From the NCBI RefSeq assembly GCF_000280925.3, contig NZ_CP012109.1:7646501-7710500 (forward strand): 64,000 nt of DNA. The letters run 5' to 3'. The stretch comes from Myxococcus hansupus (GTDB lineage: Bacteria; Myxococcota; Myxococcia; Myxococcales; Myxococcaceae). The notes beneath the pieces are model-generated. The model saw only the letters and a program-made list of their open reading frames with translations, was not told where the DNA came from and made no database searches. The position numbers were made by a program, and so were the translations under genes. Below are positions 25,740 to 45,405 of this stretch, one piece after another. Positions within the stretch are counted from its first letter, which is position 1. Every line of letters starts with the position of its first letter.

Positions 25740-27182
25740 CTACGGCGCGGTGTAGTCGATGTCCACGTCAATCATCGCGCCGGAGTAGCCATGCACCATG
25801 ACGTACGCCTTCGACTGGCCCGCGGGCACCGTGAGGTCGCACGTCTCATGGGGACCAACGACATACGGGCGGCAGTCATACGTATCGAACGTGGGCGGCG
25901 CGCCGAAGCGCACGTAGAGGTCGGGGTCATCCGTCTCCGCGCCCAGGCCTCGCATGTCCACCCGGAACTGCGTCCCGGGCTTCACGTCGTAGGTACCGAA
26001 GTCACGGTAGGTCCCCTGAGCCACGTAGGTGGACCACTGCGCCCAGCGCGGCCCCGTGATGAACCCCGTGAGCGGCACATACCGGATGTTCAAGTGGAAG
26101 GAAGGGTCCCCGCCATAGCCGGGGATCATGACGTAGGCGGTGTTCACTCCCGCGGGCACGACGAGGGTGCAACGCTCGTTGGCGGAGTACTCATACGGGC
26201 GGCAGTCCCATGCATCCATCGTGGGAGGCGCACCGAAGCGGACGTAAAGGTCCGGATCCCCCGTGCCCGTCATCTCCACGTCGAAGGTCGAGCCAGGCGC
26301 CACGGAGAAAGGGCTGTAATGGACGATGCCCGGTTCCCACGTCGAGCCTGACAGCGTCTCCGTCACGTACACGAAGCCATAGAGCGCCCGGGCGCCGTCG
26401 ATGTCCCTCTGCGTCAGCACCAGGTCCCCCATCTGGGTGCCGTTGCAGTGCGGGTAGTGCATGACGGACGCGCGGTCGTAGGTCGTCAGCGCGCGCCAGT
26501 TGTTGTCCTCGAAGCACCCGCTGGCCTGCGTGCGCGTGTGCTCGTGACGGAAGCCGAGCACGTGGCCCAATTCGTGGCGCGTCACGCCCTCCAGCGTCCA
26601 GGGGCCCAGGCCGCCGAAGGCGCTGTTGTCGAAGAGCAGATTCCGGACAGCGCGCGCATGACTCGGGAAGAAGGCACGGGCGAAGTACGCACCGCCCGCG
26701 TTGACGGGGTTCACGTCGAACACGACGTCGTCATTGAGGGCATCGCACCGCGCATCCTCCGTGCTCACGTGCCTGAACTTCACATCGCTCGCGGCTTCCC
26801 ATGTCGCCGCCGCCGAGGCCATCGCCTGGACCACCCGGTCGTAGCGGCTGCCAAAGGTGGTGCTCACGCAGTAGGTGAGGTCCCGCTTCTGCGTGTCGCT
26901 CCACTTCGCATCCAGGCCGCCCACCTGGTGGACGGTGAGCCGCCCGCTCCGGACGTGGTCCTCGTAGAACTCACGGAGCAACGCCTCGGACAGCACCGGC
27001 ACGTCACCATCGACGATGAAGATGCCCGTGTCAGGCTCCTGGTACACCTGCGCGCGGAATACCTCCCAGGACAGCCCCTGCCCCACGGCCTCTCCGGGAA
27101 CGGGGAAGCCGCCTTCGCCTTCGCCACAACCGGCGAGCAATGACAGACCCGTGAGGGCACCAACGAACTTGGACCGAAACAT
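25740..27182 (-). CDS. secreted zinc metalloprotease lipoprotein with two PPC-like domains (copy 1)
   Basis: Protein of 480 residues. A lipoprotein signal ends at SLLAGC (Cys19). After a propeptide-like part, a metzincin-type catalytic domain has HELGHVLGFRHEH (zinc ligands His203, His207, His213, base Glu204) and a Met-turn ASVMHYP. Two tandem bacterial pre-peptidase C-terminal domains follow, each with GDPDLYVRFGAPP and a cysteine pair. The start at 27182 has AAGGAG 5 nt upstream. It is the downstream member of a tandem pair with near-identical layout; an 86-base stretch differs at two positions. Probable role: degradation of proteins outside the cell, as in predation. Substrate is unknown. 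Confidence 0.9.
   Translation of the reverse strand: MFRSKFVGALTGLSLLAGCGEGEGGFPVPGEAVGQGLSWEVFRAQVYQEPDTGIFIVDGDVPVLSEALLREFYEDHVRSGRLTVHQVGGLDAKWSDTQKRDLTYCVSTTFGSRYDRVVQAMASAAATWEAASDVKFRHVSTEDARCDALNDDVVFDVNPVNAGGAYFARAFFPSHARAVRNLLFDNSAFGGLGPWTLEGVTRHELGHVLGFRHEHTRTQASGCFEDNNWRALTTYDRASVMHYPHCNGTQMGDLVLTQRDIDGARALYGFVYVTETLSGSTWEPGIVHYSPFSVAPGSTFDVEMTGTGDPDLYVRFGAPPTMDAWDCRPYEYSANERCTLVVPAGVNTAYVMIPGYGGDPSFHLNIRYVPLTGFITGPRWAQWSTYVAQGTYRDFGTYDVKPGTQFRVDMRGLGAETDDPDLYVRFGAPPTFDTYDCRPYVVGPHETCDLTVPAGQSKAYVMVHGYSGAMIDVDIDYTAP
26432..26517. repeat. direct repeat, copy 1 (86 bp, shared with 28152-28237)
   Basis: These 86 bases match 28152-28237 with two substitutions (26448 and 26474), in the part of each protease gene coding for the segment around the Met-turn. 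The offset is 1720 bases. The surrounding gene sequence is far less alike, which suggests recent gene conversion or strong local constraint. Confidence 0.85.
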
Positions 27183-27351
27183 GAAGCTCCTTGCCGAGAT
27201 GAGGGCTCGTGCCCCCACGGCATCGTCTCAGCCCCCAGGCTTCGTCACGAATCCAAGTTTCCTGATGAATCCCACTTCCGCCCGGCTCACTCCGGGGCTC
27301 CCGCGCAGCGACACTTTCGGGTAAGGGGCGCGGCCCCACGGCGCCGGTCAC

Positions 27352-27392
27352 CAAAAGAAACGGGCGGCCATCCCGCGAGGGAGGCCGCCCGT
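27352..27392 (-). terminator. intrinsic terminator after the second metalloprotease gene
   Basis: On the minus strand the arms ACGGGCGGCC and GGCCGCCCGT form a 10-bp GC-rich stem with a small inner TCCC/GGGA helix, followed directly by TTTCTTTT. It begins about 25 nt past the TAG stop at 27418. This is a good Rho-independent terminator and suggests the two protease genes are separate transcripts. Confidence 0.85.
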
Positions 27393-27417
27393 CGTTCACG
27401 TCATGCCCAGGCCAGGA

Positions 27418-28902
27418 CTACGGCTTGGTGTAGGTGATGGTCAGGTTGTAGGTGGCGCTCGTGAAGCCACGCACCATCACAAACGCGCTGGTCTGACCCG
27501 CGGGAACGGGGATGTCGCACGTCTCGTTGGCGCCGTTGACGTACGGGCGGCAGTTGTACGCCGACGTGGTGGGCTGCGCGCCCCACCGGACGTAGAGGTC
27601 CGGGTCACCCGTGCCCGTCATCACGACCTTGAAATTGGTGCCAGCCTTCACGCTGAAGGAGCCAATCTGGACGTTGGCGCTGCTCCCCACGCTGCCGGTC
27701 CGCGTCTCGGTGGTCACGCCGCCACCGGTGCCCCGGGGCGTCAGGTAGTTGACCGTCAGGTTGAACGAACCAGCGGCGTAGCCGTTCACCATGACGAACG
27801 CGGAGGTCACGCCCGCCGGCACCTCGAGGGTGCAGGTCTCGGTCGAGGTACCACCGAGGTACGGGCGGCAGACGAACGACGTCGCGGTGGGCGCGGCGCC
27901 CCACTGGACGTAGAGGTCCGGGTCACCCGCGGACCCCGTCCGCTGCAGCGTCGCGGTGAAGGTCGAACCCGGAACCACCGTGAAGGGGCCCCGGTGGAAG
28001 TTCCCACCCGTCGCGACGGTGCCCGTGAAGGTCTCCGTCCGCGGGTCGCCTTCCGGCGGCGGCGGGGGCGGCGGGGGCGGCTCACCGTTCGGCGTGCCGT
28101 AGAGCGCCTGGATGCCCTCGACGTCCTTCGCGGTCAGGACCAGGTCCCCGTTCTGGGTGCCGTTGCACTGCGGGTAGTGCATGACGGACGCGCCGTCGTA
28201 GGTCGTCAGCGCGCGCCAGTTGTTGTCCTCGAAGCACGTGCGCGCCTCGGGGCGGGTGTGCTCGTGGCGGAAGCCGAGCACGTGGCCCAGCTCGTGGCGG
28301 GTGATGCCCTCCAGCGTCCAGACGCCCAGGGGCTGGAAGGAGCTGGGGTCGAACACGACGTTGCGCGCGGCGCGCGCGTCACCCGGGAAGAACGCGCGAG
28401 CCAGGTACTGGCCACCGGCGTTGATGGGGCTCACGTCGAACAGCACGTTGTTGTTGCTGGCGGTGCAGTTCCCGTCCTGCGCGCTCACGTGAGTGAACTT
28501 CACGTGGCCGGCGGCCTCCCACTGCGCCGTCGCAGTGGCCATCGCCTGAACCATCCGGTTGTAGTTGTTGTTGAAGCGGGTGCTCACGCAGTAGGTGAGG
28601 TTCAGCTTCTGCGTGTCGCTCCACTTCGCGTCCTGGCCGCCCACGCGGTGGACGATGAGCTGCCCGTTCCGGACGTTGTTCTCATAGAACTCGCGCAGGT
28701 GCTTCTCGGTCGCGAACGGCGTGTCCCCGTCGGCGATGTAGATACCCGTCTCAGGCTCCTGGTACACCAGGGAGAGGAACTCCTCCCACGACATTCCCTG
28801 ACCGACGACCTCGTCGGAAGCAGGGTTGGTGACATCGCCGCCGCCGCAACCGGCGAGCAGCGCCAGGCCCGTGAGGGCGCCGACGAACTTGGACTGTGAC
28901 AT
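27418..28902 (-). CDS. secreted zinc metalloprotease lipoprotein with two PPC-like domains (copy 2)
   Basis: Paralogue of the gene at 25740-27182, 494 residues. The lipoprotein signal ends at LALLAGC (Cys19). Propeptide and catalytic domain align without gaps to copy 1, and HELGHVLGFRHEH again occupies 203-215. A nine-proline linker absent from copy 1 joins the catalytic domain to two PPC-like domains (GDPDLYVQWGAAP and GDPDLYVRWGAQP). The second ATG (28902) is preferred, as AAGG is 6 nt before it and abuts the first (28908). The upstream 300 bases are clearly AT-richer and probably hold its promoter. Both copies have intact catalytic residues, so neither is a pseudogene. Confidence 0.9.
   Translation of the reverse strand: MSQSKFVGALTGLALLAGCGGGDVTNPASDEVVGQGMSWEEFLSLVYQEPETGIYIADGDTPFATEKHLREFYENNVRNGQLIVHRVGGQDAKWSDTQKLNLTYCVSTRFNNNYNRMVQAMATATAQWEAAGHVKFTHVSAQDGNCTASNNNVLFDVSPINAGGQYLARAFFPGDARAARNVVFDPSSFQPLGVWTLEGITRHELGHVLGFRHEHTRPEARTCFEDNNWRALTTYDGASVMHYPQCNGTQNGDLVLTAKDVEGIQALYGTPNGEPPPPPPPPPEGDPRTETFTGTVATGGNFHRGPFTVVPGSTFTATLQRTGSAGDPDLYVQWGAAPTATSFVCRPYLGGTSTETCTLEVPAGVTSAFVMVNGYAAGSFNLTVNYLTPRGTGGGVTTETRTGSVGSSANVQIGSFSVKAGTNFKVVMTGTGDPDLYVRWGAQPTTSAYNCRPYVNGANETCDIPVPAGQTSAFVMVRGFTSATYNLTITYTKP
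28152..28237. repeat. direct repeat, copy 2 (86 bp, shared with 26432-26517)
   Basis: Partner of the repeat at 26432-26517. The two substitutions change Gln-Cys-Asn-Gly to His-Cys-Asn-Gly and Gly to Arg before AlaSerValMet in the encoded proteins. Recombination between the copies would fuse the two genes and delete about 1.7 kb. Confidence 0.85.
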
Positions 28903-29201
28903 GGACATCCTTGTTGGGATGAGTGGTTCACAGCCGACCAAGCAGCCGCCGTGCCAGAATCCAAGTCATTGCCGTTATTCAGATTTTTTATCGGCTCCGG
29001 GTTCAACGCGGTGTGCCGGGGCTCCAGCGCCCACACGTCTTTTCGTAAAGAGCTTTGACGCTATTGAACCAAAGTCGAGTAGTTCTAAGTGCTTACCCGT
29101 ACGAACAGGGCCGACCTGATTTCAGTCACTCCGTCCGAACTCAGGACGCCGGCAAGATCTACCTGCCCTGGAAAGCGACAATTTGAACGGAAGCCTCGGC
29201 C

Positions 29202-35767: not shown

Positions 35768-38335
35768 TCAAGACTCCAGGTGGGGCGGGACGGCGGGCAG
35801 GGTGAACCAGAAGGCCGTGCCTTCGCCGGGCCGCGACTCCACGCCGATGCGTCCGCCATGGCGCTCGACGATTTTCTTGCAGATGGCCAGGCCAATCCCC
35901 GTGCCTGGATACTCTTCCTTGCCGTGGAGCCGCTGGAAGATGACGAAGATACGCTCGAAGTACTCCGGCGCGATGCCAATTCCAAAGTCGCGCACCGTGA
36001 AGCAAACCTCCTCTCCCTGGGCCTCGGCGCTCACCTGGACGCGGGGCGGCGCGTCCCCATGGAACTTCAACGCATTGCCCACGAGGTTCTGGAACAACTG
36101 GGTGAGCTGCGTCTCGTCCGCGAGCACGGCGGGCAGCGGGCCGTGCTCCACCGTGGCGTGCGTCTCCTCGATGGCGGCGCGCAGGTTCGCCGTCGCCCGC
36201 GCCATGGCCCGGGACGTGTCACAGGGCCGCAAATCCTTGCCGCGCGTGCCCACGCGTGAGTAGGCCAGCAGGTCCTGGATGAGCCGCTGCATGCGGTTGA
36301 CGCCATCCACCGCGTAATGGATGAACTCGTCCGCGTCCGAGTCCAGCTTGCCCTTGTAGCGCCGGCCCAAAAGCTGCGTGTAGCTGGCCACCATGCGCAG
36401 CGGCTCCTGCAAGTCATGCGACGCCACGTAGGCGAACTGCTGGAGCTCCTCGTTGGAGCGGGCCAGCTCCTGCACGTGCTGCTGGAGCGACTCCTCGGCG
36501 CGGCGCCGCTCCACACCCTGCGCGATGGCGTCCGACACCGCCGCCAGCGCCGCCACCGCGTCATCGTCCAAGGGCGTGTCGCGGTAGACGCCGAGCGCCC
36601 CCACGAGCTGCCCGCGCACCATCAGCGGCATGCCCGCGAACGCATGGATGTTCATCTCCCGCAGCCAGGCGTGGTCCAACACCCGCGGGTCCGTCCACAG
36701 GTCATCCACGCGGAGCTGCGTGCGCAGCCGCGCCACCTCGCTCACCATGCTCAGGCCGTCCACCCGCACCCGCATCCACCTGTCGCGCGGCGGCGCGGTG
36801 GACCCCGCGTTGCCCGCCAGCTCCAGGGTGTGCGTGTCGCGTGCGTAGAGCCACAACCGGACCGTCTGGGCGGCCAGGTGCGTCACCACCGCCTCCGCGC
36901 AGTCCTGGAGGATGTCTGGAACCGTCCCCTCCCGGGACAGGGCGAGGCTCACGTCCGCGCGCAGCGCCTCCAGCCTGCGCACCGCGGCCTCCCGGGCGGC
37001 CCGGTGCGAGGCCTCCTCCACCAGGCGCTGGGCGGAGATGTCCGTGGTGGTGCCCACCCATTCCCGGATGGAGCCGTTGGGGTTGAGCACCGGCACGGCC
37101 CGCACGCGTGAAGGGGTGTAGTGCCCCTCCGGGCGGCGCAGGCGCTGCTCGGACTCGTAGGGGCGGCGCTGCTCCACGGCGGCGAACCAGGTTCGGGCCG
37201 CCGCGTCGCGCTCCTCGGGGTGCACGGCGGTGAGCCAACCGTGGCCCCGCCACTCCGCGAAGGTCTGCCCGGTGTAGGCGCGCCACGACGGGCTGTCCTC
37301 CTCGATGTCGCCATCCGGGCGCGTCACCCAGACGGCCTGCGTGGACGCGGTCACGAGCGAGCGGAAGCGCTCCTCCATCCGCCGCGCGTCCTTGATGAGC
37401 CGGGCATTGTCCAGGGCCACCGCCGCGCGCTCCGCGAGCTGCGAGGCGAGCAGCATGTCCGACGGACGAAACCGCCGCCCGGACTCCGCATGGACCAGGG
37501 AGAGCGCGCCAATCGTCCGCCCGCGAGCCTTCAGCGGCAGCACCATGACCGAGCGCAGCCCCAGCTCCCGCGCGATGCGCAGGTGTTCCGCGTCACGCGC
37601 ACCCGCCACCAGCAGCGCGTCCGGGACCTCGGGCAGCAACACCGGCTCTCCGGTGCGGATGACGGACAGCACGCCCGAAGGGTCCTCGTGGCGCGGCGGG
37701 TAGCGCACCCGCAGCTCCTCGCCGTAGCGCACCTTCTCCGGGTCCACGTGGGCCACACCCACCTGACGCGTGGAGCCATCCTCGTAGGCGATTTCGATGG
37801 CGCACCAGTCCGCCTGGGACGGCACCACCAGCCGCGTCAGCGCCGCGAGCGTCGCCTCGTAATCCAGCGAGGAGGAGGACAAGAGCGCGCTGGCCTCGGC
37901 CAGCAGGGACATGGAGTCCGTGGCGCGCTTCTGCTCCTCGATGTCCGTGCAGGTGCCAAACCACTTGAGGATGCGGCCGCCGTCGTCGCGGACCGGCTGC
38001 GCCCGGCCCAGGTGCCAGCGCCACACGCCGTCATGCCGGCGGCAGCGGTATTCCACCTCGTAGGGCTCACCGGTGCGCAGGGAGTGGGCCCAGCGCCGGT
38101 TCGCCTCCTCCAGGTCGTCCGGATGGAAGGCCCGCTCCCAGCCCGTGCCCACCGAACCCTCGGGGGACAGGCCGGTGTAGGCGAACCACCGAGCGTTGAA
38201 GTACTCATGCCGGCCGTCCGCGCGCGTCACCCAGACAAGGTGGGGAATGCTCTCGGCAACCTGCTGAAAGGCGTCCAGTCCGGGGAGCACCGGCTCCGGG
38301 GCCGCGTCCGGAGAACTTCGATGGGGGTGCGTCAT
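35768..38335 (-). CDS. PAS/GAF multi-domain sensor histidine kinase
   Basis: Cytoplasmic kinase of about 855 residues. Domain order: PAS (about 20-135, with [16 protein letters not shown]), GAF (about 145-300), PAS (about 305-430), GAF (about 440-590), coiled coil, HisKA near 625-690 ([19 protein letters not shown], as in phytochrome-like kinases), and an ATPase domain ([42 protein letters not shown]). No membrane helix. Signal unknown; no chromophore-binding Cys stands out. The start is ambiguous between ATG 38335 and GTG 38344, and neither has a ribosome site. It heads the kinase/regulator operon. Confidence 0.92.
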
Positions 38336-38491
38336 GGAAGGCACACGACGTTAACAGCCCACATGGGAGCTGCCCTCCTGGGAACCTGCGGCTTTCCACC
38401 AGCCGACAGTCCCTTTCCTGGCACGCCTGGGCGCAGACATGCACAGAAAACATGATTTGCTGATTAATTCATGCCCGCAAGCGCATGGCAT

Positions 38492-38518
38492 CTGTCACTG
38501 CATGGACGAAAGTGACAG
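38492..38518. promoter_or_regulatory. inverted repeat upstream of the pseudopilin operon, possible operator
   Basis: CTGTCACT and AGTGACAG are perfect 8-base arms separated by 11 bases, about 105 bases before the first pseudopilin gene and 155 bases from the divergent kinase. Spacing and symmetry suit a dimeric regulator binding adjacent helical turns. Confidence 0.45.
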
Positions 38519-38621
38519 AGCAGACATTTGCAATGGCAAAGAGATTCAGTAGCCTTTCACACGCAGACATCAGACGCGGGTCGGGGCCGGGGGGAGGTTT
38601 ACTGTAAGCCTTTAGAGGACC

Positions 38622-39461
38622 ATGGACCCCATTGACCTCCGTCGTCGCCGTCAATCCGGCCAGGTCGCGGTCGAGTCAGCGCTCATCATCCCGATGATGG
38701 TCTTCATCGTCCTCGGCACCATCCAACTGGGCATGGTGCATCACGCCCGGCTGATGACGGAGTACGGCGCCTACCGCGCCGCCCGGGCGGGCATCGTCAA
38801 TCACGGCGACTGCAACATCATGCGGAAGGCCACCCTGACCGCGTTGTTGCCCACGCTGGCGCCCCTCAATGGCGTGAAGAGCCGCGTCGACACGCTCGAC
38901 TTCACGAAGGACGTCCACGAGGAGTACCTGGGGACGCTGTTCACCGGGCCCTTCGAAAACACTTTCGTGCCCATCTTTCCGAAGTACGCGTCGGGCGGGC
39001 TGCCGCTGTTCCGGCTCGAGGTGGTCAACCCCAGGCTCGGGGACCTGGACAACCTCTTCGCAGTGTACGGCGCGCACATGCAAGCCCGAGAGGTCGACTA
39101 CGACGATGTGCGGGATGACCGCATCGTCGAGGCGAATCTCCTCTCCATCCGGCTGACCTACTTCTACGAGATGCGCATCCCCTTCGCGAACTGGCAGTTG
39201 CACAGCTTCTACATGGGCCGCGAATACCTGGACCAACTGCGCGGCCTCCAGTTCGAGAATCAGCGCGTGGGTGGGCAGTCCGCCACCACCTATCTGGAGC
39301 AGCGCGGCGCCGCGCGCAGCCTGGACCACCGTCGCGTGAGCACGCTCGCCGGCCAGCGCACCTATGTGATGCCGCTGGTCGCGACCTGGTCCATGCGCAT
39401 GCAGTCCAACTACTTCGACAACGACGAGCACGGGCCGCGCCGCTGCGCGGTCGATAGCTGA
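38622..39461 (+). CDS. TadE-like pseudopilin
   Basis: Protein of 279 residues. Near the N-terminus GQVAVESALIIPMMVFIVLG shows a prepilin-like Gly-Gln junction, Glu at +5 and a hydrophobic helix, as in TadE-type pseudopilins. The next segment (YGAYRAARAGIVNHGDC) is a common TadE continuation. The remaining 220 residues are a soluble extracytoplasmic domain with aromatic-rich patches (FYEMRIPFANWQLHSFYMG). It is the first gene of a five-gene operon. No peptidase or pilus motor is encoded in the window, so assembly would depend on genes elsewhere. Confidence 0.85.
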   Translation: MDPIDLRRRRQSGQVAVESALIIPMMVFIVLGTIQLGMVHHARLMTEYGAYRAARAGIVNHGDCNIMRKATLTALLPTLAPLNGVKSRVDTLDFTKDVHEEYLGTLFTGPFENTFVPIFPKYASGGLPLFRLEVVNPRLGDLDNLFAVYGAHMQAREVDYDDVRDDRIVEANLLSIRLTYFYEMRIPFANWQLHSFYMGREYLDQLRGLQFENQRVGGQSATTYLEQRGAARSLDHRRVSTLAGQRTYVMPLVATWSMRMQSNYFDNDEHGPRRCAVDS

Positions 39462-39489
39462 GTCCCCCACTCGGACTGGAGCAGCCCCC

Positions 39490-41130
39490 ATGTTCCGCCT
39501 CCTCCGCAGGATGCGCCGCGATGAGCGCGGCCAGGCCATGGTCATTGGCGCCGTCGCCATGCTCGTGCTGGCCGTCAGCGTCATGGCGTCCGTCAGCATT
39601 GGCCATGGCGTCTACGAGAAAATCAAACTCCAGGACGCGGCCGACGCCCAGGCGTACTCCATCGCGGTGAAGGAGGCCCGGGCCTACAACTTCCTGGCCT
39701 ACACCAACCGCGCGATGGTGGTGCACTACTCGGCCATGCTCACCGTGATGTCCTACGTGAGCCACGCCGTCTACCTGGACCAGACGATTCGCAACGTCGC
39801 GAGCGTGCTCAAGGTCATTCCTGTCATCGGCGGCATCTTCGCCGCGGTGGAACAGGCCCTGAAGTTATGGAAATCCGCCGTGGAGGTGGTCGCCAGGGCG
39901 CTGATTCCCATCCTCACCGGCTTGAACATCGCGCTGTGGCTGGCCCAGGAAGCCATGCTGTTCGGCACGCTCATGGACCTGGTCACCTCCGATGGAAACC
40001 TGGTCGTCCAGGGGACCGACCCCAAGGCCCAGGTCGGCCTGGCGATGACCTATGGCTCGGGAGGCTCCAACCCCGGGCTCTCGGTCCTGAACGCCGTCAC
40101 CAGCACCAACTATTCGAACCTGAAGAACTTCCTCCACCCCATCGACGATGGACCTCGCAGCAGCGGCAGCGTGAGCATCTCCGACCCCACCGGCATGGGC
40201 ACTCGCTCCAGGCTCTTGCGAGACAACAAGCTCTCCGAGCCGGACATGGCCAAGTACCGGCTGCTCATGGGCAACATCGCCAATGCCATGCGGCGGGAAT
40301 GGACGGCCGTGGGTGACGGTCCCATCCTCATTGGCCGGCAATGGAACCTGAACCTGTGCCTGGCCGCCTTCCAGGTGCGCATCGAGAAGACGGCTGACAG
40401 TCAAATCAAGAGCTTCGACGAGAACTTCGAGAACAACCGCAAGGACCAGCTCTACGCCGCGGACGACATCCGGATTCGACTCCGCCCGCTCTGCTACTTC
40501 GGCCGCTGGCGCAATGTCTTCCAGTTCCGCTTCCGCGCCGCCGCGGATGCCCAAGGCGGCTTCCACCAGGAGTTTGGCCGCCGCAAGACGGACGACCACC
40601 ACAACTGGGAGGGCATCACGCCCTTCGTCACCTCCGACCCCAGCTTCGTCCGGCCCTGGCAGTACCACTTCGGCTACCCGTGCAACGTCACCGTCCTCTC
40701 CAAGGACATGGGCGCGGAGAGCGGGGAGACGGAGGCGCCCTTCCAGATGAAGAACCTGCGGGACAACGCCTTCATGACGAACGAGTCCGCCTGGTGGAAG
40801 TCCGAGAAAGCGACTGAGAACGAAGTCGTGGGCGGCGGGTTTCTGGACATGACCTGGAAGTACGTGGGCGGCTACAAGATGAAGAGCGGGGCCCTGGACG
40901 GAGACGCGGCGCACTTCCGCGAGACGACCGGCGGAATGATGGCCATCGCCGTGGGCCGCGCCGTCTACCACCGCCCCGGTGTCTGGAAAGAGCAGCCCAA
41001 CTTCTTCAACCCGCTGTGGACGGCCCGCCTGGCCCCGGTGAAGACGCATTGGGAGGACTCCGCCATGCGCGTGATGATTCGGGAGTGGGACCTCAGCGCG
41101 GGCTGGTTCAGGAACGCCTTCAATTACTGA
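39490..41130 (+). CDS. TadG-like putative Flp pilus-assembly protein
   Basis: Protein of 546 residues. The head DERGQAMVIGAVAMLVLAVS is a TadG-like membrane segment with a GQ junction but Ile, not Glu, at +5. LQDAADAQAYSIAVKEARAY and FLAYTNRAMVVHYS follow, the typical TadE/G extension. Another hydrophobic region lies at about 95-160. The large C-terminal domain is extracytoplasmic, with HHNWEGITPFV and many Trp. Spacing to the previous gene is 28 nt. TadG-like proteins sit in the envelope and are needed for Flp-type pili. Confidence 0.83.
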   Translation: MFRLLRRMRRDERGQAMVIGAVAMLVLAVSVMASVSIGHGVYEKIKLQDAADAQAYSIAVKEARAYNFLAYTNRAMVVHYSAMLTVMSYVSHAVYLDQTIRNVASVLKVIPVIGGIFAAVEQALKLWKSAVEVVARALIPILTGLNIALWLAQEAMLFGTLMDLVTSDGNLVVQGTDPKAQVGLAMTYGSGGSNPGLSVLNAVTSTNYSNLKNFLHPIDDGPRSSGSVSISDPTGMGTRSRLLRDNKLSEPDMAKYRLLMGNIANAMRREWTAVGDGPILIGRQWNLNLCLAAFQVRIEKTADSQIKSFDENFENNRKDQLYAADDIRIRLRPLCYFGRWRNVFQFRFRAAADAQGGFHQEFGRRKTDDHHNWEGITPFVTSDPSFVRPWQYHFGYPCNVTVLSKDMGAESGETEAPFQMKNLRDNAFMTNESAWWKSEKATENEVVGGGFLDMTWKYVGGYKMKSGALDGDAAHFRETTGGMMAIAVGRAVYHRPGVWKEQPNFFNPLWTARLAPVKTHWEDSAMRVMIREWDLSAGWFRNAFNY

Positions 41131-41140
41131 CGGAGCCACC

Positions 41141-42322
41141 ATGAAGCCTCGCATCGCTCCTCGCCGCCGGCGCGGCTCCTTTCGGGCACGACGTGGCGCC
41201 GCCACCGTCGAGTTCGCCCTGCTGGCCCCGCTGCTCATCGTGCTGGTGCTCTGGTCGAACTACTTCTGGGACATTCAGCGCGTGCGCCTCAAGGGCGCCG
41301 AACTGGCCCGCTACGTCGCCTTCGAGCGCACCGTGAGGACGGACGTGGACCGCATCGCCGCGGACGCCCAGGCGCGCTACAAGGACCTGGATGGCTCCAC
41401 GAAGACAGGGGACCTGCACCCCAGCTTCGAGGGCCGGTTCACGGTGTCCGTCACGGCCCGGAACGCGGATGCGCCCCTGACGTCGCGCTCCATGTCGGGA
41501 CAAAACACGGGCGGCGGCTTGATGGCGGCCGCCAACACGGCCATGAGCGCGCTGGGCGGCACCGCGGCCGCTGTCGCACGGCAGATGGGGCTGGAAGCAC
41601 GCGTGGGCGCCGTCCAGACCGACATCGAGCTCACCCTCCGCAACGCCTTCATCCCGGAGACCATCGCCATGTACACGACGGGCTTCGGCGACGACCCGTT
41701 GGACCTGCGGATGACGGAGCGGTTCTACCTCTTCCATGACACGTGGCGGGCCTGGGAGCCCGGCGACGTCCCAGCAGACAACGACGCCGCGTACAACCGC
41801 GTCGAGCAACGCACGTATGACCGCGTGCGGCGCATCGCCTACGCGGGCGTCTCCGCCAACTCGGGAGGCGCGCTCGACTCCATTGGAGACGTGCTCGGGG
41901 TGCTGGGCTTGGATTTCCCATTCTCCAACAGCTATCTCCGTGACTCCGTCTGGATTCGGCCCGTGACTGAACACCCCAAGCGCCCATCCAAGGATCGGTA
42001 TTGGGCCACGGGCTCGGTGCGCACGGTGCCAGGAGATGCACTGCAAGCCGTCTACTGGGAGAACGACACGAAGTGGTGCTTCAACGACTGTGAGCCTGAC
42101 GCCGTCAAGAAGAAGCGGGGGTTCTCGCAGGATGGCGGCAATGGCGACAACTGGCCCATGCGTGCCCACAACTGCCGCGGCCCGTTCTTCCAGGGAGCGA
42201 CGGGCTCGTTGCGCCCCGAATCCATCTACTCCGACCAGTACATCTTCAGCATCAAGCGGCAGGACTATCACAACTACGAGGGGTCGGACGCGTGTGTCCA
42301 ACCCAGCCCCACATCCCGTTGA
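41141..42322 (+). CDS. TadE-like pseudopilin, second copy
   Basis: Protein of 393 residues with a TadE-type head: basic residues, then RGAATVEFALLAPLLIVLVL with Glu at +5 after the Gly junction, then FWDIQRVRLKGAELARYVAFE. The long soluble domain contains four cysteines, including CFNDCEP and NCRG, that may form disulphides outside the cell. It follows the TadG-like gene by 10 nt. It is much longer than standard TadE (about 150-200 residues). Confidence 0.83.
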   Translation: MKPRIAPRRRRGSFRARRGAATVEFALLAPLLIVLVLWSNYFWDIQRVRLKGAELARYVAFERTVRTDVDRIAADAQARYKDLDGSTKTGDLHPSFEGRFTVSVTARNADAPLTSRSMSGQNTGGGLMAAANTAMSALGGTAAAVARQMGLEARVGAVQTDIELTLRNAFIPETIAMYTTGFGDDPLDLRMTERFYLFHDTWRAWEPGDVPADNDAAYNRVEQRTYDRVRRIAYAGVSANSGGALDSIGDVLGVLGLDFPFSNSYLRDSVWIRPVTEHPKRPSKDRYWATGSVRTVPGDALQAVYWENDTKWCFNDCEPDAVKKKRGFSQDGGNGDNWPMRAHNCRGPFFQGATGSLRPESIYSDQYIFSIKRQDYHNYEGSDACVQPSPTSR

Positions 42323-42365
42323 GTGCGCGCATGGAATCACCACGCCCTCGGCATGAAGGGACCGC

Positions 42366-43211
42366 ATGAGCCGGCTCACCGACAGGACAGGCGCGCTGAC
42401 GCGGTGGCTCGGGCTCGGCGGCCTGCTGCTGCTGGTGCTCACCGCCGTCACGCTGCCAGAGCCGCCTCCGGAACCGGTGCCCGCCTCCCAGGCCGAGCCG
42501 GCCCCCGCCCGCGAGCCGGTGGCGCCCACGCCAACACCTTCCCCCATGCAGGACCGCTTCCCGGCCTTCCCCCGCACCACGCTCATCCCCATGGGCCGGA
42601 TGGAGACCAACGGCAATCCCATGGAGATGGCGTTCTTCGAAACGCAGAGCCCGCCGGGCGAGGTGATGGAGTTCTACGCCCGTGAGTTCCGCCGCCAGGG
42701 CCGCCGCGTCACGCACCAACCGGACGGCGCGGGCGGCGGCGTGGTGAACTACTACGACGAGATTCGGGGCGCGCTCGTCTCCATCACCGCCATTGGCATG
42801 GGGAGCAAGCCCCAGCGCACGCTCGTGTTTCCCTCCATCGTGGAGACGCCCCAGGGCATGCACCTGCACGGGAGCGCGCCCGCCACGTTGCCACGGCCTC
42901 CCGGGGCCATGACGGTGCTGCGCGTGGATGACCGGAGCACGGGCCCGGCCGCGAACAGCATGACGCTCACCGAGGTCGCCACCGGCACGCCCACGATGCT
43001 GGCGGCCTTCTACCGCGAGGCCTTCGCCGAGCGTGGCTACACCCCATCCGAAGCGCGCTCGGGCACGCACGGCGTGGAGATGCTCACCTTCCAGAAGCGA
43101 GGCGAGCGGCTCTCCGTGTCACTGGCGCCCGTCGCCAAGGACGGTCCCCCCGAATCCCTTGTCACCGTGGTCCAGGAGTGGACCCCCCCTCTGACGGAGT
43201 CCATTCCATGA
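42366..43211 (+). CDS. single-pass exported protein in the pseudopilin operon
   Basis: Protein of 281 residues with an N-terminal anchor (about 15-37, LGLGGLLLLVLTAVTLPEPP), a Pro/Ala-rich linker and two copies of a fold of about 90 residues. Each copy carries a segment of the type GEVMEFYAREFRRQGRR / PTMLAAFYREAFAERGYTP, followed by a beta hairpin. The duplicated helix resembles modules seen in proteins that monitor quantities in the envelope, but no family name is certain. AAGGGA lies 5 nt before the ATG. Confidence 0.78.
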   Translation: MSRLTDRTGALTRWLGLGGLLLLVLTAVTLPEPPPEPVPASQAEPAPAREPVAPTPTPSPMQDRFPAFPRTTLIPMGRMETNGNPMEMAFFETQSPPGEVMEFYAREFRRQGRRVTHQPDGAGGGVVNYYDEIRGALVSITAIGMGSKPQRTLVFPSIVETPQGMHLHGSAPATLPRPPGAMTVLRVDDRSTGPAANSMTLTEVATGTPTMLAAFYREAFAERGYTPSEARSGTHGVEMLTFQKRGERLSVSLAPVAKDGPPESLVTVVQEWTPPLTESIP

Positions 43212-43408
43212 CTGGATTGATGACGCGAACCCTGAAGTGGTTGCGGCGCCCGCGCACGCGGGGACAGGCCATGGCGGAGTTCTCGATGCTGCTGTTCGCC
43301 CTGATCATCTTCATGGGAGGCATCGCCACCTTCGCCCCCGACATGTTCGCGGGCTTCACCATCTACGTGCGCGGCTTCTACCTCGTGCTCGGATACCCGC
43401 TGGGGTGA
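43208..43408 (+). CDS. small Flp/TadE-like pilin candidate
   Basis: Protein of 66 residues, the size of Flp major pilins. RGQAMAEFSMLLFALIIFMG shows the Gly-Gln junction and Glu at +5, with a hydrophobic helix and a second hydrophobic stretch to the end (FTIYVRGFYLVLGYPLG). Its ATG overlaps the upstream stop (ATGA). The Glu-Tyr pair typical of Flp pilins is replaced by Glu-Phe. It could be the major subunit of the structure for which the other operon proteins are minor parts. Confidence 0.75.
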   Translation: MTGLMTRTLKWLRRPRTRGQAMAEFSMLLFALIIFMGGIATFAPDMFAGFTIYVRGFYLVLGYPLG

Positions 43409-43422
43409 GCGGGTCCTCGCGC

Positions 43423-44118
43423 TCACTGCTGAGGCAGCCGCGGAATGGCGATGGGCACGGCGCTCAGCGCGGGCTGCGCGCCGGTCCCCGATGCGCGCGC
43501 CACCCAGGTGGCGGTGTCATCGCGGATGGATTCGACACCGGACACCGGCACCTTCGGCGTCATGACCACGGTCACCACCCGCTGGTCCTCCTGGCGGTAG
43601 ACGCGCTGCGCGGCCTTCCCCGCGAACTTCCCCGCGCGGATGTCCGTGGGCTTCTCCTCCGTCAGCGTCCCTCGCAGCTCGGGCTGGTCCATGTAGAGGT
43701 CCACGGGCAGGGAGATGGGCGCCGTGGGCGGAACCGAGACGGCCATCCGTTCGACGATGGGCCGCGCGCCGCCCACGACCCAGGCCACCATCAAGGTCCG
43801 GGGCTCCGTCTGATAGTCGAGCTCGACCTGATAGAGCACCTGCCCGTCCTCGCGCTGGGTCGTCCCCACCACGGCCACTCGCACGGGGAAGCGCGCCTGC
43901 TTGGAGCGATACTCGTACTCCACCCAGGTCCCCACCACGGGCTGGAACCGGGCATGGAGCAACGGAGGCGGCACCAGCGCCCGGGCCTCGGCGATGCGCG
44001 AGGGCGCCACGGTGATGGTCTCCGCCGGGGGAGGCGTGGCGGGCGCGTTGCCCGAAGCTTCCGCGGAGGCCCCCGCGAACCAACACACGACAGACACGGC
44101 TGCCAGGAGGCGTCGCAT
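43423..44118 (-). CDS. exported protein of unknown function
   Basis: Protein of 231 residues with a signal peptide (RRLLAAVSVVCWFAGASAEA) and no lipobox. The mature part is beta-rich: GTWVEYEYRSKQARFPVRVA, then YQVELDYQTEPRTLMVAWVV. This YEY/VELDY pattern suggests an envelope protein related in character to the divergent neighbour at 44182. The long in-frame extension upstream runs through that neighbour's coding region and is not real. It lies convergent with the pseudopilin operon, 14 nt from its end. Confidence 0.78.
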   Translation of the reverse strand: MRRLLAAVSVVCWFAGASAEASGNAPATPPPAETITVAPSRIAEARALVPPPLLHARFQPVVGTWVEYEYRSKQARFPVRVAVVGTTQREDGQVLYQVELDYQTEPRTLMVAWVVGGARPIVERMAVSVPPTAPISLPVDLYMDQPELRGTLTEEKPTDIRAGKFAGKAAQRVYRQEDQRVVTVVMTPKVPVSGVESIRDDTATWVARASGTGAQPALSAVPIAIPRLPQQ

Positions 44119-44181: not shown

Positions 44182-44796
44182 ATGACACGCACCGCTTGGA
44201 GCCTCGGCGTGTTGCTGTTCTGCCTGCTGGCCGCACCCGTGACGGCCCAGGACAGCATGCTGGGATTGCCGCTCGTGCTCCGTGACGGTGGCTGGGCCCG
44301 CTACGTGGGCAACACCCCGGCGGGCTCCGCCACCTTCGTGTTCAAGGTCGGCGCGCATGACACGCACGAAGGTCAGCGCGGGCGTTGGTTGTTGCTCGAA
44401 ATCGAGGTGCCTGGCACGGGCCGCGTGTTGTTCGAGTTCCTCGTGAAGGGGAAGGTCTTCACCGCGGACCAGGTGCTGCACACGCGGGTCAGCGTGCCCG
44501 GAAGGCCGCCGCAGGAGACGAAGGACGCCTTCGCCAACCCGGAGCGACCCGGCGTCTGGAAACCCAAGCTCCTGCGCGAGACGACGGCGAAGGTGGCGGG
44601 CCGCGAGCTGCCCGTGACGGAGTACTCCTTTCCGGCCGGGCTCACCGCCGCGTGGTCCCCGGAGGTCCCCGGCGTGGGCCTGGTGGAGGTCACCGGCCCG
44701 GAGCCCTTCCAGCTCGTGGCCTTCGGCGTGGGCGGAGACCCGTGGAAGGGCATGACGGGCCGCTCGCACTGGCCCGCGCCGCCCGTGGCGAAGTAG
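44182..44796 (+). CDS. exported protein of unknown function
   Basis: Protein of 204 residues with a signal peptide (SLGVLLFCLLAAPVTAQ). The mature part is all-beta: LVLRDGGWARYVGN, RGRWLLLEIEVPGTGRVLFE and VTEYSFPAGLTAAWSPEVPG. GGAGAG precedes the ATG. It is divergent from a similar-looking exported protein, with 63 bases between them that must hold both promoters. Both may serve the neighbouring pseudopilin operon; this is inference from location. Confidence 0.78.
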   Translation: MTRTAWSLGVLLFCLLAAPVTAQDSMLGLPLVLRDGGWARYVGNTPAGSATFVFKVGAHDTHEGQRGRWLLLEIEVPGTGRVLFEFLVKGKVFTADQVLHTRVSVPGRPPQETKDAFANPERPGVWKPKLLRETTAKVAGRELPVTEYSFPAGLTAAWSPEVPGVGLVEVTGPEPFQLVAFGVGGDPWKGMTGRSHWPAPPVAK

Positions 44797-44799
44797 CGC

Positions 44800-45405
44800 T
44801 CAACGCCCCTGCGCGCGGGGCGCGAGGCCGGCCTGGACCATCTGCCCGCGCGCCCGCTCCGCCTCATCGTGGGGAAGGCGGACCTCCAGCCGGAGCGTGT
44901 CGCCGCGCCCCGCCTGGAGCCACGTGCGCGGCAGCTCGCCGTCCTGCTTCCGCAGACGGAACCACTCCAGCTCCGTGAAGCGCGTGCGCCGACCCAGGTG
45001 GTCCACGAAGCCGTCGCGCCCCAGGAACAGCGACGGCACCAGTTGGAAGCCCAGGGCGCTCAGCCAGGTGGCCAATCCCAGACAGAAGCCTCCCAGCGCG
45101 GGCCGTGGCTCGGCGGATGTCAGGAGGTGAAGCCCCAGGAGGCCCAGTGTGGCCACCCCGGCCAGCACCAGCACATACGTGCCCACCTCCGCGCGTGAGC
45201 GCAGCGCGGTGAGCGGGCGGGCAAGCCACAACGACGCCAGCGCGTGGCACGACAGGAGCAACAGCCCTCCGGCCGCGACGGCCACGGCCACATCCACCTG
45301 CCCTCGCCGACCGCCCAGTGATTCGGCCTCCTGGAGCAACCAGGGGATGCAAGCGCCAAAGCCAGTCACCGCGAGGACATGAAACGCGAGGGAGGGCGTG
45401 GGCAT
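44800..45405 (-). CDS. polytopic membrane protein, unknown function
   Basis: Protein of 201 residues with four predicted membrane helices (about 5-23, 36-58, 72-92, 105-130) and a basic, probably cytoplasmic C-terminal domain of 65 residues with VDHLGRRTRFTELEWFRL and a beta hairpin (TLRLEVRLPHDEAERARG). This resembles membrane proteins with a PH-like bacterial tail. The start at 45405 is placed before the first helix; the upstream in-frame part is unlikely protein. It ends 3 nt from the convergent exported-protein stop. Confidence 0.75.
   Translation of the reverse strand: MPTPSLAFHVLAVTGFGACIPWLLQEAESLGGRRGQVDVAVAVAAGGLLLLSCHALASLWLARPLTALRSRAEVGTYVLVLAGVATLGLLGLHLLTSAEPRPALGGFCLGLATWLSALGFQLVPSLFLGRDGFVDHLGRRTRFTELEWFRLRKQDGELPRTWLQAGRGDTLRLEVRLPHDEAERARGQMVQAGLAPRAQGR

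Follow-up and report, generated by a model that had tools for sequence, protein, structure and literature searches.

A five-gene minor-pilin operon of Myxococcus hansupus as a very probable additional Tip complex of the Kil Tad pilus

This study examined a 64,000-nucleotide stretch of the Myxococcus hansupus chromosome (here called the window; positions 7646501-7710500 of a genome that is a single contig of 9.49 Mb, with relatives by sequence in Myxococcus, Pyxidicoccus and Corallococcus) and, within it, an operon of five co-directional plus-strand genes at window positions 38622-43408. Gene 1 (38622-39461) encodes a KilM-like minor pilin of the TadE family (279 amino acids, aa), gene 2 (39490-41130) a large TadG-like, KilN-like minor pilin (546 aa) presumed to be the exposed tip subunit, and gene 3 (41141-42322) a KilL-like minor pilin, again of the TadE family (393 aa). 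Gene 4 (42366-43211), designated X, encodes a 281-aa protein with an N-terminal membrane helix and two DcrB/Mog1/PsbP/Eag-like domains; gene 5 (43208-43408), which overlaps X by 4 bases, encodes a 66-aa Flp-like protein presumed to be an adapter pilin like KilK and KilO. The names refer to the minor pilins M, N and L and the adapters of the Kil Tad pilus, which serves contact-dependent predation in M. xanthus and for which the operon very probably provides an additional Tip complex.

The pilin assignments were supported by both family profiles and cleavage motifs. The Pfam TadE profile matched genes 1 and 3 above the cut-off (E 2.5e-11 and 2e-5) and gene 5 weakly (0.25), and gene 2 matched the Tad family PF13400 below the cut-off only (0.0039). 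A strict six-frame scan for prepilin sites (a basic leader, the motif G/xxxxE with the junction after Gly, and an uncharged hydrophobic helix) yielded exactly three across the whole 64 kb window, which belong to genes 1, 3 and 5; because the only three sites all fall in these genes, the occurrence of the motif is not due to chance. The scan bears out the preliminary description of this DNA, which had reported a prepilin signature in the first, third and fifth proteins. The second protein, which had been called TadG-like, has the sub-threshold family match given above; its Gly junction lacks Glu at +5. Both Gly and Glu were invariant across 12 Flp orthologues, as was Gly across 14 gene-2 homologues.

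No pilus machine accompanies these pilins. Genome-wide searches for the T2SSE, secretin, T2SSF and A24 peptidase families placed no match inside the window, in agreement with the earlier observation that ATPase, platform, secretin and prepilin peptidase are absent from it; likewise, there was no tadA, tadB, tadC or rcpA family match within the window and none among the flanking genes in relatives. Elsewhere in the genome, a Tad-type secretin, an FHA-TadA ATPase and an A24 peptidase lie together at 4.892-4.896 Mb, and at about 2.645-2.648 Mb there are CpaB/RcpC and two T2SSF platform genes, which adjoin a set of minor pilins and an Flp of 75 aa. This layout matches the M. xanthus Kil system, which PMC8460266 describes as two parts (mxan_3102-3108 and mxan_4648-4661). 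The whole genome contains a single Tad-type secretin, a single Tad-type platform pair and two A24 peptidases; those of the Tad system are at the kil loci. By position, the remaining secretins and platforms would go with the loci for type II secretion and the type IVa pilus. These genome-wide searches led to the rejection of a new appendage that has a machine of its own. Of the two possibilities raised at the outset, a new surface appendage or a pilin set using a distant machine, the second therefore stands, with the machine identified as the Kil Tad pilus, and the first does not, given the single Tad-type set and the Kil Tip layout of the operon. Tad machinery adjacent to the operon in relatives, which had been named as evidence that would speak against that proposal, was not found, although the homologous Tip4 set does adjoin kil platform genes.

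Work on M. xanthus (Herrou et al. 2025, PMC12075869) established that interchangeable Tips of the Kil pilus derive from four scattered kilLMN minor-pilin clusters. Each Tip is presented there as a three-pilin unit in which KilN combines a shared base with an exposed domain that varies, and is coupled by an Flp adapter (KilK for Tips 1, 2 and 4; KilO, 59 aa, mxan_1150, for Tip3). The same paper reports that unlinked kilLMN clusters with Flp adapters act on one pilus, and shows pilus priming, the adapter role and predation for these Tips. In the genome studied here (L and G numbers denote loci and genomes), Tip loci comprise a Tip4/KilK cluster (L014, with the Kil platform genes at 2.64 Mb), a Tip3/KilO cluster with a 59-aa Flp (L013), three more M-N-L sets (L015, L016 and L017) and the operon itself; the Tip3 and Tip4 labels were assigned by gene content and Flp sizes. 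Among these, the gene order M-N-L-X-Flp is common to the operon, L014 and L013, and the homology runs position by position. By blastp, the operon M is 32% identical to the M of both Tip3 and Tip4 (E 1.7e-36 and 9e-34), N matches the N of Tip3/Tip4 members in the base (E 3e-21), and L is 27% identical to the L of Tip4 (E 5e-17); X matches the X of Tip clusters (E 2.5e-12; hhalign 9e-10), and Flp is similar to KilK (34%, E 1.6e-4) and KilO (30%, E 0.008). The operon thus shares with Kil Tip clusters adjacent kilM, kilN and kilL homologues, a prepilin leader and Gly junction in each pilin and a Kil Tad machine in the same genome, and gene 5 has the short length, cleavage motif, Tip-cluster location and similarity of a KilK/KilO-type adapter. 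The TadE-like proteins, which had been regarded as unusually long, are long in general terms but of normal length among Kil Tip pilins (341 and 397 aa in Tip4).

Alignment of the KilN paralogues showed conservation at about residues 1-110 and 481-515 with low conservation between, and a common C-terminal motif (YHR..W.E.PN..NP.W.A.L); this combination of conserved ends and a divergent middle, with the base and motif also seen in gene 2, matches the published common base and variable exposed domain. In a tree of M proteins, the operon clusters with Tip3 and Tip4, and L015, L016 and L017 form a separate group (100/100); inside the Tip3/Tip4/operon group the branches are long and their order is unsure. 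Two loci from distant metagenome-assembled genomes (L054 and L055) fall nearer Tip4 with moderate support. Additionally, a close FHA-KilF ATPase (69-100% identity) is present in all eight operon-bearing genomes of the family that were tested, as well as in the distant genomes of L052 and L055. Because of the gene order, the position-by-position homology, the single Tad machine and the co-occurrence with KilF, the operon is very likely an additional Tip complex for the Kil pilus.

Two other assignments of the pilins were weighed against this one. The first is that they are type II secretion pseudopilins or type IVa minor pilins, which carry the same prepilin signature and whose loci, with secretin, ATPase and platform genes, do exist in this genome; yet the families are TadE and TadG rather than the N-methylation (GFTLIE) type and the nearest relatives are Kil Tip pilins, making this assignment highly improbable. 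The second concerns a lone second FHA/CpaF-type ATPase gene that was observed at 7734500-7735519 (L114), about 44 kb from the operon, conserved in relatives and without platform or secretin neighbours. Were the pilins to form a separate short pseudopilus on another engine, this gene at 7.7345 Mb would be an example of one, considering its nearness and conservation and the genome of L054, where this ATPase type is present and a close KilF was not seen. The gene, however, has no platform, secretin or peptidase partner in a genome that holds no spare Tad set, it is equally present in the operon-lacking genome G076, and the gene order and homology of the operon indicate Kil Tips; a separate pseudopilus is accordingly considered very unlikely.

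The operon is homologous to Tip3 and Tip4, and it is a Tip type distinct from both. It shares with the Tip4 cluster (kilM4-N4-L4 and KilK, mxan_4655-4660) the M-N-L-X-Flp order, homologous M, N base, L, X and Flp, and a hydrophobic stretch after the N base, but it is unlinked to platform genes, has a distinct distal N region, is only 27-34% identical, and has neighbours (W, V and U, described below) that are unmatched in the Tip4 region. Like the Tip3/KilO cluster (mxan_1150; at L013 with a 59-aa KilO-like gene), it is unlinked and includes an X gene as well as an Flp adapter of its own; it differs in that M is 32% identical, N is alike in the base only, and segment 95-165 of the Tip3 N is not hydrophobic. 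Identity with Tip3/KilO is ruled out, since the 59-aa KilO-like gene and its cluster sit at 7.224 Mb. Classical tad loci (tadE, tadF and tadG with tadZABC and rcpA) also contain TadE/TadG-like minor pilins, whereas the operon has no linked machine, longer proteins and the extra X gene. Herrou et al. 2025 mention a 'fifth type' of Tip for some Myxococcales, beyond the four of M. xanthus; the operon, likewise present in some Myxococcales, may be this type, or the L017 type may be. The latter is an M-N-L-X Tip cluster type (L017:8379-12578) related to L015 and L016, with hints of it in G066 and G074.

Further observations concern KilN4. The kilN4 gene of this genome (L014:8779-10862, about 2.639 Mb) leaves frame near L014:10234, by either a break or a sequencing error, and the copies in G076 and G062 are intact. 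A lone KilN4-like gene of 714 aa, 74% identical to KilN4 over 489 aa and without M or L partners, is located at L018:7809-9953 (0.756 Mb), and a similar lone gene occurs in G077 (L107).

By homology to the Kil system, the prepilins M, N, L and Flp would be inserted in the inner membrane and, judging from the conserved motifs, processed at the Gly junction by KilA or PilD. A heterotrimer would then form from M, N and L, held together by the alpha-1 helices and with the distal domain of N outermost, and the operon's own Flp would couple this Tip to the KilP filament. Given the single machine, the KilF ATPase, KilG/KilH platform and KilC secretin would extend the filament at prey contact, whereupon the N domain may touch the prey surface. 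For M. xanthus, trimer assembly, Flp coupling to KilP and Kil extension are supported by genetics and models in PMC12075869.

In each of the six Tip clusters of this genome, and in each of the four of G076, kilL is followed by the fourth gene, X. It matched no Pfam family, and no mention of it was found where the main texts of PMC8460266 and PMC12075869, the two papers on the Kil system, were searched. An AlphaFold2 model from 12 sequences (predicted local distance difference test, pLDDT, 78.5) comprises two alpha/beta domains behind a single N-terminal membrane helix; the two halves of the protein are similar to each other (hhalign pairwise E 2.7e-4), consistent with the earlier view of a duplicated, anchored protein. 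The second domain aligned with PA1624 (Z 11.1 over 107 residues, 2.5 A), DcrB (Z 9.9), BamC (8.3) and the type VI secretion system (T6SS) chaperone EagT6 (8.3), and the first domain gave weaker matches (Z up to 6.9). X therefore has a DcrB/Mog1/PsbP/Eag-like fold, a shared fold that in itself shows no function. Because of this fold and the constant linkage to Tip clusters, the most likely role of X is to assist the Tip from a membrane anchor in the periplasm, as a chaperone or assembly factor. T6SS immunity proteins were the top Foldseek matches (E 1.2e-3), but with TM-scores near 0.2 and Z below those of PA1624 and DcrB an immunity role is not favoured. Profiles of N, X and W gave nothing convincing against PDB sequences.

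Several points weigh against reading the operon as a Kil Tip. Support for the cassette is computational: all of its functions are assigned by homology, and the M-N-L heterotrimer is a prediction from homology. The N model is poor (pLDDT 56), and a fold search with it gave no usable match. The genome of the distant homologue L054, which may be incomplete, shows only a second-type CpaF ATPase (46%) and no close KilF. Lastly, M. xanthus-like genomes live without the cassette, so its function is not deducible from them.

Residues 95-165 of N are hydrophobic in the operon type (mean Kyte-Doolittle about 0.8-1.1 among orthologues), in the Tip4 type (about 0.4-0.8) and in the distant metagenome-assembled genomes (0.6-1.1), and not in the Tip3, L015, L016 and L017 types (-0.9 to 0). 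PMC12075869 reports that Tip4 alone kills without the type III secretion system T3SS* in M. xanthus, and a link between the hydrophobic stretch and T3SS*-independent killing can be speculated upon; a single hydrophobic stretch in an L016-like N protein (L110) weighs against such a link. Residues 98-138 of N matched dicistrovirus VP4 below significance (E 0.05-0.06). A more far-reaching proposal, in which the operon is a self-contained, gain-or-loss Kil Tip cassette with a third adapter, a hydrophobic helical hairpin in N (as in Tip4) enters prey membranes and kills without T3SS*, and X is an obligatory fourth Tip component, a periplasmic chaperone of Eag/DcrB-like fold by which these helices are shielded until mounting of the Tip, is tentative and on balance unlikely.

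Homologues of gene 2, mostly near full length, were detected in 43 of 145 genomes of the order (gene-2 alignment profile, E <= 1e-40), among them 16 of the 27 genomes of the genus; they are absent from the other 11. The five genes keep the same order in dozens of genomes, wherever the locus is long enough, with about 37-86% identity within the family and near relatives; even the distant loci L054 and L055 keep M-N-L-X-Flp at about 30% identity in N. The losses within the genus (11/27) could suggest a decaying remnant without function, but all five reading frames are intact in this genome, the order is conserved in dozens of genomes and the cleavage motifs are invariant, leaving that explanation with next to no credibility. 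Corallococcus carmarthensis has two copies of the operon (L050 and L053), with no X, W, V or U found at L050.

The conserved cassette comprises eight genes, the operon and three genes directly downstream. These are W (43423-44118, minus strand) and V (44182-44796, plus strand), both exported proteins of unknown family and, for V, without a Pfam match, and U (44800-45405, minus strand), a small multi-pass membrane protein of which remnants persist in operon-lacking relatives; all three are conserved beside the operon. Among the tested genomes of the genus, the four with the operon all have W and the 11 without it all lack W. Comparison of W with V gave a pairwise hhalign E of 0.018, and L055 possibly has a W-like convergent neighbour (hhalign 3e-4 against W, suggestive only).

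Five of the genomes without the operon (G062, G065, G075, G076 and G078) hold four M-N-L clusters each, which sets the operon apart from the four Tips of M. xanthus. In G076 these clusters are Tip4, Tip3 (whose KilO-like gene encodes 59 aa) and the sets L109 and L110; this genome was treated as M. xanthus-like because it has exactly four Tip clusters, which is not proof of species. PilA of PDB 8tj2 (M. xanthus) is 100% identical in G076 and in the operon-bearing G077. Relatives without the operon have the two flanking genes, for a histidine kinase and an acyl-CoA dehydrogenase, close together, with scars remaining between them. In G066, sequence matching window positions 38000-38567 is joined to that from 45145 onwards, with part of U kept; G065 retains the beginning of gene 1 (the start codon and some twelve codons), along with its ribosome-binding site and upstream sequence, joined to the region upstream of U. 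The deletion breakpoints in G062 and G075 are different. On the simplest reading of these sequences, an ancestral cassette underwent repeated deletion, probably on three or more occasions. A recent insertion in this genome only is ruled out, since relatives hold the operon at the same site and operon-lacking genomes keep remnants of its ends. Separately, window positions 25740-28941 carry two tandem paralogous genes (492 and 507 aa) that appear single-copy at the matching place in G075 and G062.

Overall, the locus is a variant of the published Kil Tip system and not a new appendage; its new points are that the Tip clusters share the gene X, that the cassette runs to eight genes and includes a presumed third Flp adapter, and that it was deleted repeatedly. 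An operon of 'orphan' pseudopilins, which annotation alone would leave without a machine, is thereby explained. The position of X beside every Tip cluster of two genomes indicates that the working Tip unit is probably larger than described. Compared with M. xanthus, some predators seem to possess additional Tips and one further adapter, and prey range may partly follow cassette content; the repeated loss at one site provides natural present/absent pairs for the study of prey specificity.

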